DNA from: Periplaneta americana
Lineage: Eukaryota > Arthropoda > Insecta > Blattodea > Blattidae
Assembly (NCBI RefSeq): GCF_040183065.1
Contig: NC_091119.1
Span: forward strand, 105,328,263-105,392,262
Direction: 5' to 3'
DNA: 64,000 nucleotides
Position numbers and translations under genes: made by a program. The notes below the pieces were generated by a model. The model was not told the DNA's origin and did no database searches. It saw only the letters and a program-made list of their open reading frames with translations. This document shows positions 17,635 to 46,349 of the stretch, piece after piece. The stretch's first letter is position 1; every line of letters begins with the position of its first letter.

Positions 17635-18134
17635 ACTACGTTTTCATGAAGTATTCAAATCGATTTGAATACGCTTACCGTAATGAATACGATCCCTCTG
17701 ATCCCTCTCTTCAAGCAATTTTCGATACGAAAACGATTTGAATACGAAAGCCGAGATGTTAGCATTTTGGTCATCCTGCAGGCTTGACTATAAACAACGT
17801 TGCGTTTTCGAAATGAGGCGCAAGAAGCTTAATATTCTGGTTGTTAATGTAGAAAGTTGATTATTTTTATGAAAATACAAAATATTATGTGTTATAGGCC
17901 TAGTGTAACATGACTATAAAACATAATTATAATATTGCGCTCGCTCTTAGTAAAACAGATAACAGATCAAACAAATTACTGCAGTTCATGCGTAGGCCTA
18001 TGTAAGTCGTTTCGAATACGATACGATACGATACGATAGGTGTATCGACCTTGAGACTCAAATCGTGTTGAATTCTCGTTTTCATTATGGTTTCAATATG
18101 GTGTGATTTGCATACTTCATGAAAAACTTAGTAG
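17635..18134. mobile_element. TIR element with CATGAAGTAT termini (about 500 bp)
   Basis: Left ACTACGTTTTCATGAAGTAT and the inverted right end ACTAAGTTTTTCATGAAGTAT match over about 27 bp through CAAATC. Subterminal GAATACGAT repeats occur inside, including a short GATAC tandem at 18020-18040. No transposase. The target duplication was not resolved. Confidence 0.55.
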
Positions 18135-18226
18135 ATAGGCCTATTATGGAGTGAATGTCCATCAACAATGCTATCATGTATTGTGTTTGGTGGAGTTTCT
18201 CAGCAATGAATTTCCATTGTCTGCTG

Positions 18227-18235
18227 ATCAAATGA
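18227..18235. repeat. Candidate target-site duplication, 3' side of TMEM19 insert
   Basis: The 9-mer ATCAAATGA here recurs as a direct repeat at 19364-19372, just outside the other end of the TMEM19/LINE-tail chimera. The length fits LINE-mediated insertion. Chance agreement is possible given the search space. Confidence 0.4.
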
Positions 18236-18265
18236 AGATACTAAAAGAATGTATGTATGTGTATG

Positions 18266-18310
18266 TATTTATTTACACTGCAAGTGGGCAAGCACCCGGT
18301 GGCAGTGGTA
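18266..18310 (-). mobile_element. LINE-D 3' tail fused to the TMEM19 copy
   Basis: On the minus strand the TMEM19 copy is followed, through a short T run, by ACCACTGCCACCGGGTGCTT and then CAGTGTAAATAAATAC. The same ~45-bp block ending in AAATAAATAC occurs at 46165-46222 after unrelated sequence, so it is a retrotransposon 3' end present in 5'-truncated form. Its position directly 3' of TMEM19 fits priming from the LINE tail followed by a template jump. Confidence 0.65.
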
Positions 18311-18317
18311 AAAAAAA

Positions 18318-18782
18318 TGCCATGCCGCCATTACACAACACATGGATCCATGCTCTCTGTCCACCTTCTGTGTGGTTTTCTTCAACTTTACGTTTTCGTT
18401 CACTTCGAAATTTTGTTGCTTTGGAAGCGGTAACAAAGAAAGTCATGAGGCACATCAGAAATGAATAACTAGTAAGAGTCAGCATAAAGCCCACAAATAT
18501 ACAAAGAATAGCACTAGATATAACTAAATATTTCTTACGAAGACCCCATGCAGCTACTACCAGTGGAGTTATTACTGATACAAGCCACCTTGTTGGAGGG
18601 ATTACAAAACCATCTTCATGATAAATTGCATTTGCGTCAACCGTGAAAAAGGAAAAGGCAAGATTTCCAATCCACATCAGCATAGACAAGGGAAGTGCAA
18701 CAGCACATATTAACACTGGTAACAAAGTAGTTGCCTTTGTTGTATCTTTTTTCACATGTTTTTGCAGAGTTGTAGCTGCCAT
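18318..18782 (-). pseudogene. TMEM19: TMEM19 N-terminal segment of the permuted copy
   Basis: Starts at the likely native start codon (ATGGCAGCTACAACT, minus strand). It encodes 155 residues: a short polar N-terminus, a hydrophobic segment LLPVLICAVALPLSMLMW, then RWLVSVITPLVVAAWGLRKK, a further hydrophobic block (VGFMLTLTSYSFLM), the KATKFRSERKRK basic loop and EGGQRAWIHVLCNGG. These correspond in order to the first ~40 percent of TMEM19 proteins. In the parent gene this part precedes the segment that here lies upstream. Confidence 0.85.
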
Positions 18783-18884
18783 TGTGCATTTCAACCGGTA
18801 AAAAAAAAGAAACTTTGTAGGACGTCTGAGTTTATAAGATTGTTCATAATTAATTTGTTCCTGAAATACTTCTTGTAACTGTAT
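18783..18884 (-). other. Back-splice-like junction: HHISG codons joined to 5' UTR-like sequence
   Basis: Between the last TMEM19-like codons of the upstream segment (HHISG, ending about 18885) and the Met codon at 18782 lie about 100 nt with no similarity to TMEM19 coding sequence. They contain a T-rich run (CTTTTTTTTTACC) and happen to be open in frame. This is best explained as the 5' UTR part of the exon holding the start codon, joined directly to the end of the penultimate coding exon. An ordinary linear mRNA would not have this order. Confidence 0.65.
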
Positions 18885-19350
18885 ACCACTGATGTGGTGT
18901 ATTCCCTTCCCAGCATATTCCACAATACAACCAGTATGATCATCAATCCCTGAATATTGAAGTGTCGCTCCTAGAATAGAATCAATCAGACTCCCTACAA
19001 AACCAGCAAAAGCACCTGCAAAGATGAGTGGCCATTGTGGAGGACTAGCAGCGAGTATATTTGAATCCACAAAGTAGAGGACAGACAAGTAGTAGGAGAG
19101 ACCAATAACTGTACCACCCAAGAGACTGCATATCAGTCCAGGAATTGTTACACCTCCATTTGTACCTTTAGGCACTTTCTCTCTGGTGGTTATGAGGAAT
19201 GGTTCTGCATGACCAACAACTGTTCCCATTACTACAAGCAAAGGCATCTAGAATTCCAAGACTTAACCAAGAGGCTCGGTAATCTTTGATGAAGTTTATT
19301 GGTCTTTCCCCACAACCTGAATCCAGCATGTACAAAAATGCTAGCAGCAT
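18885..19350 (-). pseudogene. TMEM19: TMEM19 middle and C-proximal segment with deletion
   Basis: In the first frame (from 19350) it reads LLAFLYMLDSGCGERPINF, then KDYRASWLSLGILDAFACSN. In the second frame (from 19247) it continues TVVGHAEPFLITTREKV, PKGTNGGVTIPGLICSLLGG, PQWPLIFAGAFAGFVGSLID, GATLQYSGIDDHTG and GKGIHHISG. Between CSNG and TVVG the conserved GDTWASE-type motif of TMEM19 is missing. The switch of frame implies a deletion of about 23 nt. The segment stops at HHISG; the final hydrophobic helix of the family is not present. Confidence 0.8.
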
Positions 19351-19363
19351 ATGGACCTATTCC

Positions 19364-19372
19364 ATCAAATGA
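19364..19372. repeat. Candidate target-site duplication, 5' side of TMEM19 insert
   Basis: ATCAAATGA, the partner of 18227-18235. Thirteen bases (19351-19363) separate it from the first TMEM19-like codon and could be untemplated or parental sequence. Confidence 0.4.
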
Positions 19373-19699
19373 CCAGTTGCCATAGAAACCCTTATGCCAT
19401 AGAAACCCCTAAGAAGAGTTTGAATTAGTACTGCAAGGGTATGCAAAGCCTTAATTAAATAGCCAGATATTTATAAAAAGGAAGAATGGATGACTGGATA
19501 AAGATAAATTACAACACATGAAAAATGAGAAATTCGAAAGTACTATGATTTCATCTGCCACTCCAAGTCTGCTCGTGGTATATTCAAATTACCCTGAAAA
19601 TCATCAACACACATCATATTTTCAAAACTATATTACTACTTGTTACATTTACAATACGAAAGCAGATACTTAAACAGTCTATTATGAAACTAATTTAGC

Positions 19700-20635
19700 T
19701 AAATGACAGCTATGAGCAATATGGTATGAAGATAAATACAAATAAGACAAAGAGCATGGTCATACGAAGAAAAAACTTGCGAATTCTAAATGAGCCAGTA
19801 GAGCAAGTGGACAATTTCACATGCTCGCCAGGAAGTCAAAAGGAGGATAACAATGGGAAAGGAAGCTTTTAATAGAAAAAAGAGCATTTTCTGCGGACCT
19901 CTGGAAAAAGAACTAAGGAAGACACTAGTAAAGTGCTTTGTATGGAGTATGGCAGTGATTGGGGCAGAAACATGGACATTACGACGAAGTGAAGAGAAGG
20001 GAATAGAAGCACTTAAATTGGGATATGGAGAAGAATGAAACGTGTGAAGTGGACAGACAGAAGAAGAAATGAAGCTGTGTTGGAAAGAGTGGGTGAAGAA
20101 AGAAGATACTGAAATTGATAAAGAGGAGGAAAATGAATTGGCTGGGTCACTGGCCGAGAAGAAACTGCCTACTGAAGGATGCACTGGAAGGAATGGTGAA
20201 CGGGAGAAGAGTTCGGGGTAGAATAAGATATCAGATCATAGACGACATTAAGATATATCGTCGTTGTTCCTGCAATAACTCCTATGTGCAAAATATACAA
20301 TTTTTCAGTAGGAGGAAAAAACACATTTATTCATCCTATGGCAGCCGCACATAGGGGATTGTGAATGCTTAAATTTTAAAAAGAAGAAATATAATTGTAT
20401 ATAGGAGATTTTATTATTTGCTGTATAACTATTTAAGCTATTTAATAGAGCAAACATCTGAAAATCGTTAAATATGTCACATAGGAGTTATTGCAGGAAC
20501 AACGACGATATGGATCATTATGAGGAAAAGAAAAGGAAGGTAGAAAATAGGAAAGATTGGAGAAAGCTGGGTTTGCAGTGAAAGACCTTTCCTTGGGCAG
20601 AACACAAAATGAATGAATGAATGAATGAATGAAAC
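19700..20635 (+). pseudogene. LINE-A 3' end: C-terminal RT/tail of a non-LTR retrotransposon
   Basis: Broken frames give YEQYGMKINTNKTKSMVI (end of the RT domain), then KEAFNRKKSIFCGPLEKELR, LVKCFVWSMAVIGAETWTLR, RKMNWLGHWPRRNCLLKDAL and EGMVNGRRVRGR, followed by a GCAGTGAAAGACCTTTCCTT 3' UTR and a (TGAA)n tail. Similar insect LINE ORF2 proteins contain these motifs in this order. It is 5'-truncated, lacks the endonuclease, and has internal deletions. A 251-bp MITE interrupts it near the end. Minus-strand copies lie at 23185 and 28143. Confidence 0.75.
20258..20508. mobile_element. MITE in LINE-A, TA duplication (251 bp)
   Basis: Termini TCGTCGTTGTTCCTGCAATA and the exact inverse at the right form TIRs of about 30 bp (continuing ACTCCTATGTG). 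TA lies on both sides (20256-20257, 20509-20510). Removing the element and one TA restores GATATATGGATC, which is present intact in the LINE-A copy at 23280, so the boundaries are exact. Confidence 0.9.
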
Positions 20636-46055: not shown

Positions 46056-46164
46056 CATTATTCTGTAAAATTGTACTGCGTATTCTTACTGTATTGTGTA
46101 TTCTTATTGTATTGTGTATATAATTGTATTGTGTATTGTAATTTGATTGTGTATTGTTTATATT

Positions 46165-46222
46165 GTTTGTACCACTGCCACCGGGTGCTTGCCCACTTGC
46201 AGTGTAAATAAATACAAATAAA
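46165..46222 (+). mobile_element. LINE-D 3' tail, second occurrence
   Basis: ACCACTGCCACCGGGTGCTT through CAGTGTAAATAAATAC and a further AAATAAAT repeat. Identical in core to the block fused to the TMEM19 copy, but preceded here by a TATTGTGTATT-type simple repeat, which shows it is an independent 5'-truncated retroelement end. Confidence 0.75.
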
Positions 46223-46349
46223 TGTTTCATATAAAACAAGTTCTATCTCGGAAAGGAAGCAAAAGGAAAACAATAATTATATTATTTTTTTGTTTAAAAT
46301 ATCTCAAAGAATAAATCTCTGAAATTAATGACATTATTTACGGTTCATT

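Follow-up and report, generated by a model that had tools for sequence, protein, structure and literature searches.

The window, a stretch of 64,000 nucleotides (C3:105328263-105392262), contains an insert made of three blocks in one orientation: the 3' half of the TMEM19 mRNA, the 5' half of the same mRNA, and a LINE-like 3' end with its tail. This insert is probably a composite retropseudogene that formed by LINE-type target-primed reverse transcription, with either template jumps or prior ligation of RNA. Its structure points to a template of joined or broken mRNA pieces and not to an ordinary spliced RNA circle. Judged from its sequence, the locus belongs among the LINE chimeric retrogenes, not among the fossils of back-spliced circRNAs. 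Chimeric retrogenes are a known kind; the circularly permuted form is new. A permuted, intronless copy that covers one lap resembles the fossil of a back-spliced circRNA, yet no splice junction is present at the joint of this copy. Permuted order alone is therefore no proof of a circRNA origin. The insert is also an insect example in which a host mRNA copy is joined to the 3' hairpin of a LINE-like element. Its joints are exact and could, should further copies of this kind come to light, separate template jumping from RNA ligation.

The TMEM19 copy and its parent gene

A PF01940 profile search of the 3.23-Gb genome identifies two loci. One is the copy in the window, with two matching stretches in a single open frame; the other is a gene of several exons on contig C13, with three stretches. 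When the TMEM19 part of the copy is used as the query, the genome search returns ten stretches from two loci only, namely the copy itself and nine pieces of parental exons. With E-values between 6.3e-12 and 4.5e-95 for the nine exon pieces at a genome size of 3.23 Gb, the TMEM19 match is not due to chance. The parent gene is on a contig other than that of the window and extends from C13:161755386 to the stop codon at 161771693. It has eight exons, A to H, separated by seven introns, all of which are GT-AG. The 40 kb surrounding this gene were aligned to the copy, with BLAST to the exons and with global alignment.

The copy extends over positions 19345-18318 of the minus strand and is intronless, with mRNA nucleotides 562-1055 placed before nucleotides 1/2-556. 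The 3' piece (18875..19345) contains the rest of exon E, exons F and G, and 75 nt of exon H. The 5' piece (18318..18875) contains exon A, exon B with the start codon, exons C and D, and the first 47 nt of exon E. Both pieces are spliced, and all seven parental introns are gone at the exon edges. The exon alignment thus bears out the earlier note on this DNA, which described a permuted, intronless TMEM19 copy on the minus strand and a retrocopy of spliced RNA. That note also took ~100 nt before the Met codon to be 5' UTR. This is correct; the spacer of ~90 nt is parental 5' UTR and consists of exon A and the first 12 nt of exon B. Relative to exon F, the copy has a 23-nt deletion (19228..19229) that shifts the reading frame and marks the copy as a pseudogene.

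The two ends of the copy are in exon E and are 5 nt apart, with ACACA (mRNA 557-561, C13:161764208-161764212) missing between them. The abutting breakpoints described earlier are therefore present, but the lap is not a full one: it is 5 nt short, and the parent protein reads GGMA-TQ-LAFLYM at this point. If the second end is taken as uniform over the 1,055 nt, the chance of a gap of 5 nt or less in either direction is ~0.01, which is a post-hoc figure. At the other boundary, the copy enters the last exon, H, and stops within its coding part at mRNA nucleotide 1055. Missing from it are the 3' UTR and the ~26-27 C-terminal residues of TMEM19. This is congruent with the previously noted loss of ~25 residues but not with the loss of the whole last exon, of which 75 nt remain.

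The copy differs from the parent by 32 substitutions at 1,025 aligned sites, the single 23-nt deletion and two extra T. The 3' piece has 16 substitutions at 471 sites in addition to the deletion, and the 5' piece has 16 substitutions at 554 sites and the two extra T. The divergence of the two halves is alike (Fisher p 0.72), so both probably originated in a single event. As the locus is judged from the assembled sequence, an assembly artefact could be considered. Such an artefact is extremely improbable, as the copy is intronless, has 32 differences from the parent over 1,025 sites, to a similar degree in both halves, and is located in a window that contains no N.

An open frame of 324 aa (18273-19247, minus strand) spans the former 5' UTR as well as the two halves of TMEM19. 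The substitutions are distributed 11/4/14 over codon positions 1/2/3, with 3 more in the UTR. The lack of stops in the frame at ~3% divergence is weak evidence of use, and no function of the copy is apparent from the reading frame.

A different repeat is present at window positions 19689-20258 on the plus strand. It shares 82% identity with sequence located ~2-2.6 kb upstream of the parent gene, and part of it is also 85% identical to the last intron of that gene. Its plus-strand frame presumably resembles a reverse transcriptase.

The internal joint

Canonical circRNAs join splice sites. The internal joint of the copy (18874..18875) connects the inside of the last coding exon, H, to the first base or bases of exon A. 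It had previously been placed at 18885/18884, and the alignment to the parent moves it to 18875/18874. The joint reads ...ACAGTTAC|AAGAAGTATT, with one C common to both sides. In the parent, GTTAC is followed by TGGATAACC, the coding sequence of the remaining residues (LDNHSINL...), and AAGAAG at the start of exon A is preceded by CTCTAATTC. Directly at the joint, the parental sequence after the exon H breakpoint is TGGATA and that before exon A is CTCTAATT. The joint has no GT or GC donor and no AG acceptor, wherever in the 1-nt overlap it is placed. The closest GT is located 5 nt upstream of it, and the closest AG has its end 4 nt downstream. Splicing via these two sites would drop ~8 nt that are present in the copy.

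The earlier note proposed a back-spliced circRNA as the template and stated beforehand that a joint away from the exon boundaries would refute this. The joint is 75 nt inside exon H on one side and at the first base of exon A on the other, with no GT/AG, and the canonical circRNA origin falls with this position. A retrocopy of a canonical back-spliced TMEM19 circRNA would account for a permuted and intronless copy of about one lap that has no poly(A) and an incomplete last exon. It is nevertheless hardly credible, since neither side of the joint offers a donor or an acceptor and no acceptor precedes the first copied base of exon A.

The available text on the circRNA-derived pseudogenes of mouse and human (circRFWD2, circSATB1 and others; PMC5345220) describes an exon order that is compatible with a circle, as in the copy. 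The circRFWD2 pseudogenes are mostly without poly(A) (39 of 42 cases), and the copy is also without poly(A). These pseudogenes are recognised by their back-splice joint, which in circRFWD2 connects exon 6 to exon 2, whereas the joint in the TMEM19 copy connects the inside of an exon to the start of the 5' UTR. The copy also differs from them, as far as the same text describes them, in the LINE-like 3' end that is attached to it. The literature surveyed, which comprises titles and abstract openings and few subscription papers, contains no insect circRNA-derived pseudogene, nor any circularly permuted retrocopy whose joint is not at splice sites.

Sequences flanking the copy

At its 3' side, the copy is fused to the 3' end of a LINE-like repeat, identified by genome search and alignment of copies (18249..18318, minus strand). 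This end has a length of ~57 nt and a (TACA)n-type tail, and its orientation is the same as that of TMEM19. The two sequences meet at 18318/18317, with one nucleotide (A) in common. Taken together, the three joints of the insert have 0-1 nt in common and no extended homology. A predicted 3'-terminal stem-loop of the LINE-like RNA (18272..18312, minus strand) is fully kept, and the joint with TMEM19 is ~5 nt beyond its base. The RNA fold of 18313-18241 has an energy of -15.2 kcal/mol (z -2.67), and 2 of 200 shuffles are as good.

The 38-nt core of this 3' end has 7,475 matches in the genome at two or fewer mismatches (3,724 and 3,751 by strand), and the reversed-pattern control has 0 and 0. With 7,475 ends in 3.23 Gb, the chance that a random breakpoint lands in the final 60 nt of one of them in the same orientation is, by arithmetic, ~7e-5. 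The LINE machinery suggested in the earlier note is therefore indicated more directly than that note knew, by a LINE-like 3' end fused to the copy. The note overlooked both flanking pieces, this end and the MITE-like fragment, and did not see the insert as a chimera. In the 40-kb region of the parent gene, no significant match to either piece is found (best BLAST E 0.026 for the LINE 3' end; best profile E 0.54 for the MITE).

The copies of the LINE-like repeat have apparently variable 5' ends and a constant 3' end. Together with the hairpin, the tail and an upstream frame that is presumably reverse-transcriptase-like, this pattern points to a LINE. A Pfam search with the 224-aa upstream frame returns 0 families at E 0.01, and no reverse-transcriptase frame is seen by eye farther upstream of two of the copies. 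Of the 100 exact matches listed, the first 20 (contig C1) were inspected by eye, and in all 20 the 90 upstream nt displayed are LINE sequence throughout. The 21 BLAST copies nearest to the joint are more varied. In four of them (L022, L026, L028 and L031), the sequence directly above the hairpin units is not LINE, and in at least two more (L030 and L036) non-LINE sequence is present within ~50 nt, again by eye. Short LINE ends are thus not unique to the TMEM19 locus, which counts against the composite retropseudogene. In L022, L026, L028 and L031, at least one repeat of the hairpin segment's own CCACTGCCACCGGGTG unit is placed before that segment, with other sequence before the repeats in turn, as if synthesis had restarted at the 3' end. 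The window contains another copy of the LINE-like 3' end at ~46070-46230 on the plus strand. It is 96% identical over 55 nt, and LINE body is seen upstream of it by eye.

Insertion of the TMEM19 sequence into a pre-existing LINE is rejected, as the upstream part of the LINE is not seen beyond the other side of the insert. A target preference for ATTCT is also rejected. Of the 21 best BLAST matches, 9 or 10 have this motif behind the tail, but the query itself included that flank. In 20 copies chosen regardless of flank, ATTC follows the tail in 2 and ATTCT in 0.

The 5' side of the copy meets a MITE-like fragment at 19346/19345. This is a 50-nt internal fragment (19346..19395, minus strand) of a terminal-inverted-repeat element of ~160-165 bp (29 genome copies aligned; profile E 1.3e-16). 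On the consensus, the fragment extends, by eye, as far as the inner edge of the right inverted repeat. It may represent either target DNA with a loss of sequence or an additional RNA template. A MITE that served as a simple target and has its remainder on the far side is rejected, since the profile search gave one match only within 18000-19800. A short direct repeat, GGGTTTCTATGGCA, with its units 17 nt apart, is present at 19408-19378 (minus strand) and overlaps the left edge of the MITE-like fragment. A second repeat family, with genome copies 65-84% identical, is found in the 3' flank of the insert at 17850-18133.

No target-site duplication of the insert is detected by local alignment, where the score is 9 and the shuffles have a mean of 8.2 and a maximum of 11. 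The 9-nt match TCATTTGAT (19372/18235) is rejected as a duplication because it is near chance, by estimate, and is not at the ends of the insert. In a search of the upstream 1,450 nt of other copies of the LINE-like repeat, three of the 21 (L027, L033 and L039) scored above all 60 shuffles. All three are in repetitive sequence, L033 and L039 in simple repeats and L027 in a repeat that is also present in the window. The duplication test therefore says little on what the element leaves. Among the 40 candidates scored, of 469, there is no paralogous empty site for the 3' flank of the insert.

Formation of the insert

In the proposed mechanism, target-primed reverse transcription would start on the tail of the LINE RNA and copy the 3' hairpin. 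Near the base of the hairpin, synthesis would change to TMEM19 RNA, through a template jump or across an earlier RNA ligation. It would then copy exon E back to exon A, continue into exon H and back to exon E, and halt 5 nt short of its start. The side and the orientation of the LINE-like 3' end fit target priming on LINE RNA followed by TMEM19 RNA. The permuted order and the abutting ends suit a TMEM19 RNA that was once contiguous. LINEs of the L2 and RTE clades are described as stringent in RNA recognition, and U6 copies are reported for them as chimeras only in the available part of PMC4476161. Recognition of this kind, if needed here, would explain the LINE hairpin instead of poly(A). Several points count against the composite retropseudogene: no target-site duplication is seen, the LINE identity is itself deduced, and two joins plus a third foreign piece make a long chain of steps.

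The accessible parts of PMC13174262 and PMC8857657 discuss how such chimeras may form, either by template switching or by ligation of the RNAs prior to reverse transcription. For the chimeras of a human LINE-1 assay, the authors of PMC8857657 favour ligation before copying over jumping, and their argument, as given there, speaks against the jump variant of the mechanism. The insect R2 enzyme in vitro, as described in excerpts, jumps maximally when the primer has a 3' overhang of 1-2 nt that matches the 3' end of the acceptor. This preference is compatible with the 0-1 nt common at the joints of the insert. In RNA-ligated U6/LINE-1 chimeras (Moldovan et al. 2019, as cited in PMC8857657 and PMC13174262), a chimeric template exists before reverse transcription, which is likewise a possible route for the insert. 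Ligation of the same kind could also yield a non-spliced TMEM19 circle. The insert differs from the U6/LINE-1 chimeras, as these citations present them, in that the partner is an mRNA in permuted order and ligation is a proposal only.

The TMEM19 template may, tentatively, have been an end-ligated, non-spliced circle that was opened in exon E. The insert could then perhaps be regarded as the fossil of an mRNA circle, in which the 5' end (the first base of exon A, a putative transcription start) was ligated to a 3' end left by a break in the last exon. Such a circle would have been entered in exon E, fused to the LINE hairpin and copied once around. That one mRNA was cut in exons E and H and its two parts copied in the wrong order is rather doubtful. 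A further conceivable variant of the composite retropseudogene has two joins onto independent fragments of TMEM19 mRNA, with the abutment in exon E arising by coincidence or from a shared site of cleavage or pausing. It requires neither a circle nor a common molecule, and double template switches by LINEs are described in the available text of PMC2104539. The exon H breakpoint is in a stretch of high predicted accessibility (95th percentile), which favours independent fragments; the exon E breakpoint is unremarkable in this respect (70th percentile), and ends 5 nt or less apart are expected in ~1% of cases under uniform breakpoints. Overall, nothing decisive is obtained from RNA folding.

The remaining explanations place the permutation at the level of DNA. 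A linear TMEM19 cDNA or retrocopy could have formed a DNA circle that was opened in exon E and end-joined beside a pre-existing LINE end and the MITE. In a yeast assay, a LINE gave rise to circular DNA products, according to the accessible part of PMC3510499. Joints with 0-1 nt of overlap and no target-site duplication found also agree with end joining; both neighbours of the copy are repeats, and short LINE ends occur elsewhere. This origin is unlikely, however, because the LINE 3' end has the side and orientation that target priming predicts, at ~7e-5 by chance, and because no LINE body is seen on the other side of the insert. A partial tandem retrocopy with later deletions on both sides would, by inference, give the same order of blocks. 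It would require two deletions, in separate copies, within 5 nt of one parental point, one of which must also end at the LINE 3' hairpin. The joint between exons H and A contains no poly(A) or 3' UTR, unlike a tandem of full copies, and tandem copying with deletions is very improbable.

The composite retropseudogene is most similar in structure to the LINE chimeric retrogenes, which include WEIRD/Mg-SINE/MGL of Magnaporthe, mammalian U6/L1 and human mRNA/L1 (available text of PMC2104539, PMC4476161 and PMC13174262). In these, as in the insert, the LINE 3' end is at the 3' side and a foreign RNA copy is fused upstream. They are mostly in sense orientation, do not need homology at the joint and include double joins, as does the insert. 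For example, Gogvadze et al. (PMC2104539) describe, in the part available, 33 bipartite LINE chimeras and one tripartite chimera from the rice blast fungus, in which the switch shows no microhomology. The tripartite chimera has a 14-bp target-site duplication, whereas none is found for the insert. The insert further differs from the chimeras in these texts in that the partner is a single host mRNA present as two permuted, abutting pieces, and in that only ~57 nt of LINE-like sequence are kept. The available text of the mRNA/LINE-1 chimera paper (Law and Burns, PMC13174262) contains no word beginning with circular or circRNA. A search for comparable retrocopies of the cyclophilin family gave 33 matches, and the one examined is a gene that has introns and, over 1,900 bases, no LINE hairpin. 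Compared with an ordinary processed pseudogene, the TMEM19 copy is likewise made from spliced mRNA and contains a frameshift; it differs in its permuted order and in having, in place of poly(A), a LINE-like 3' end.
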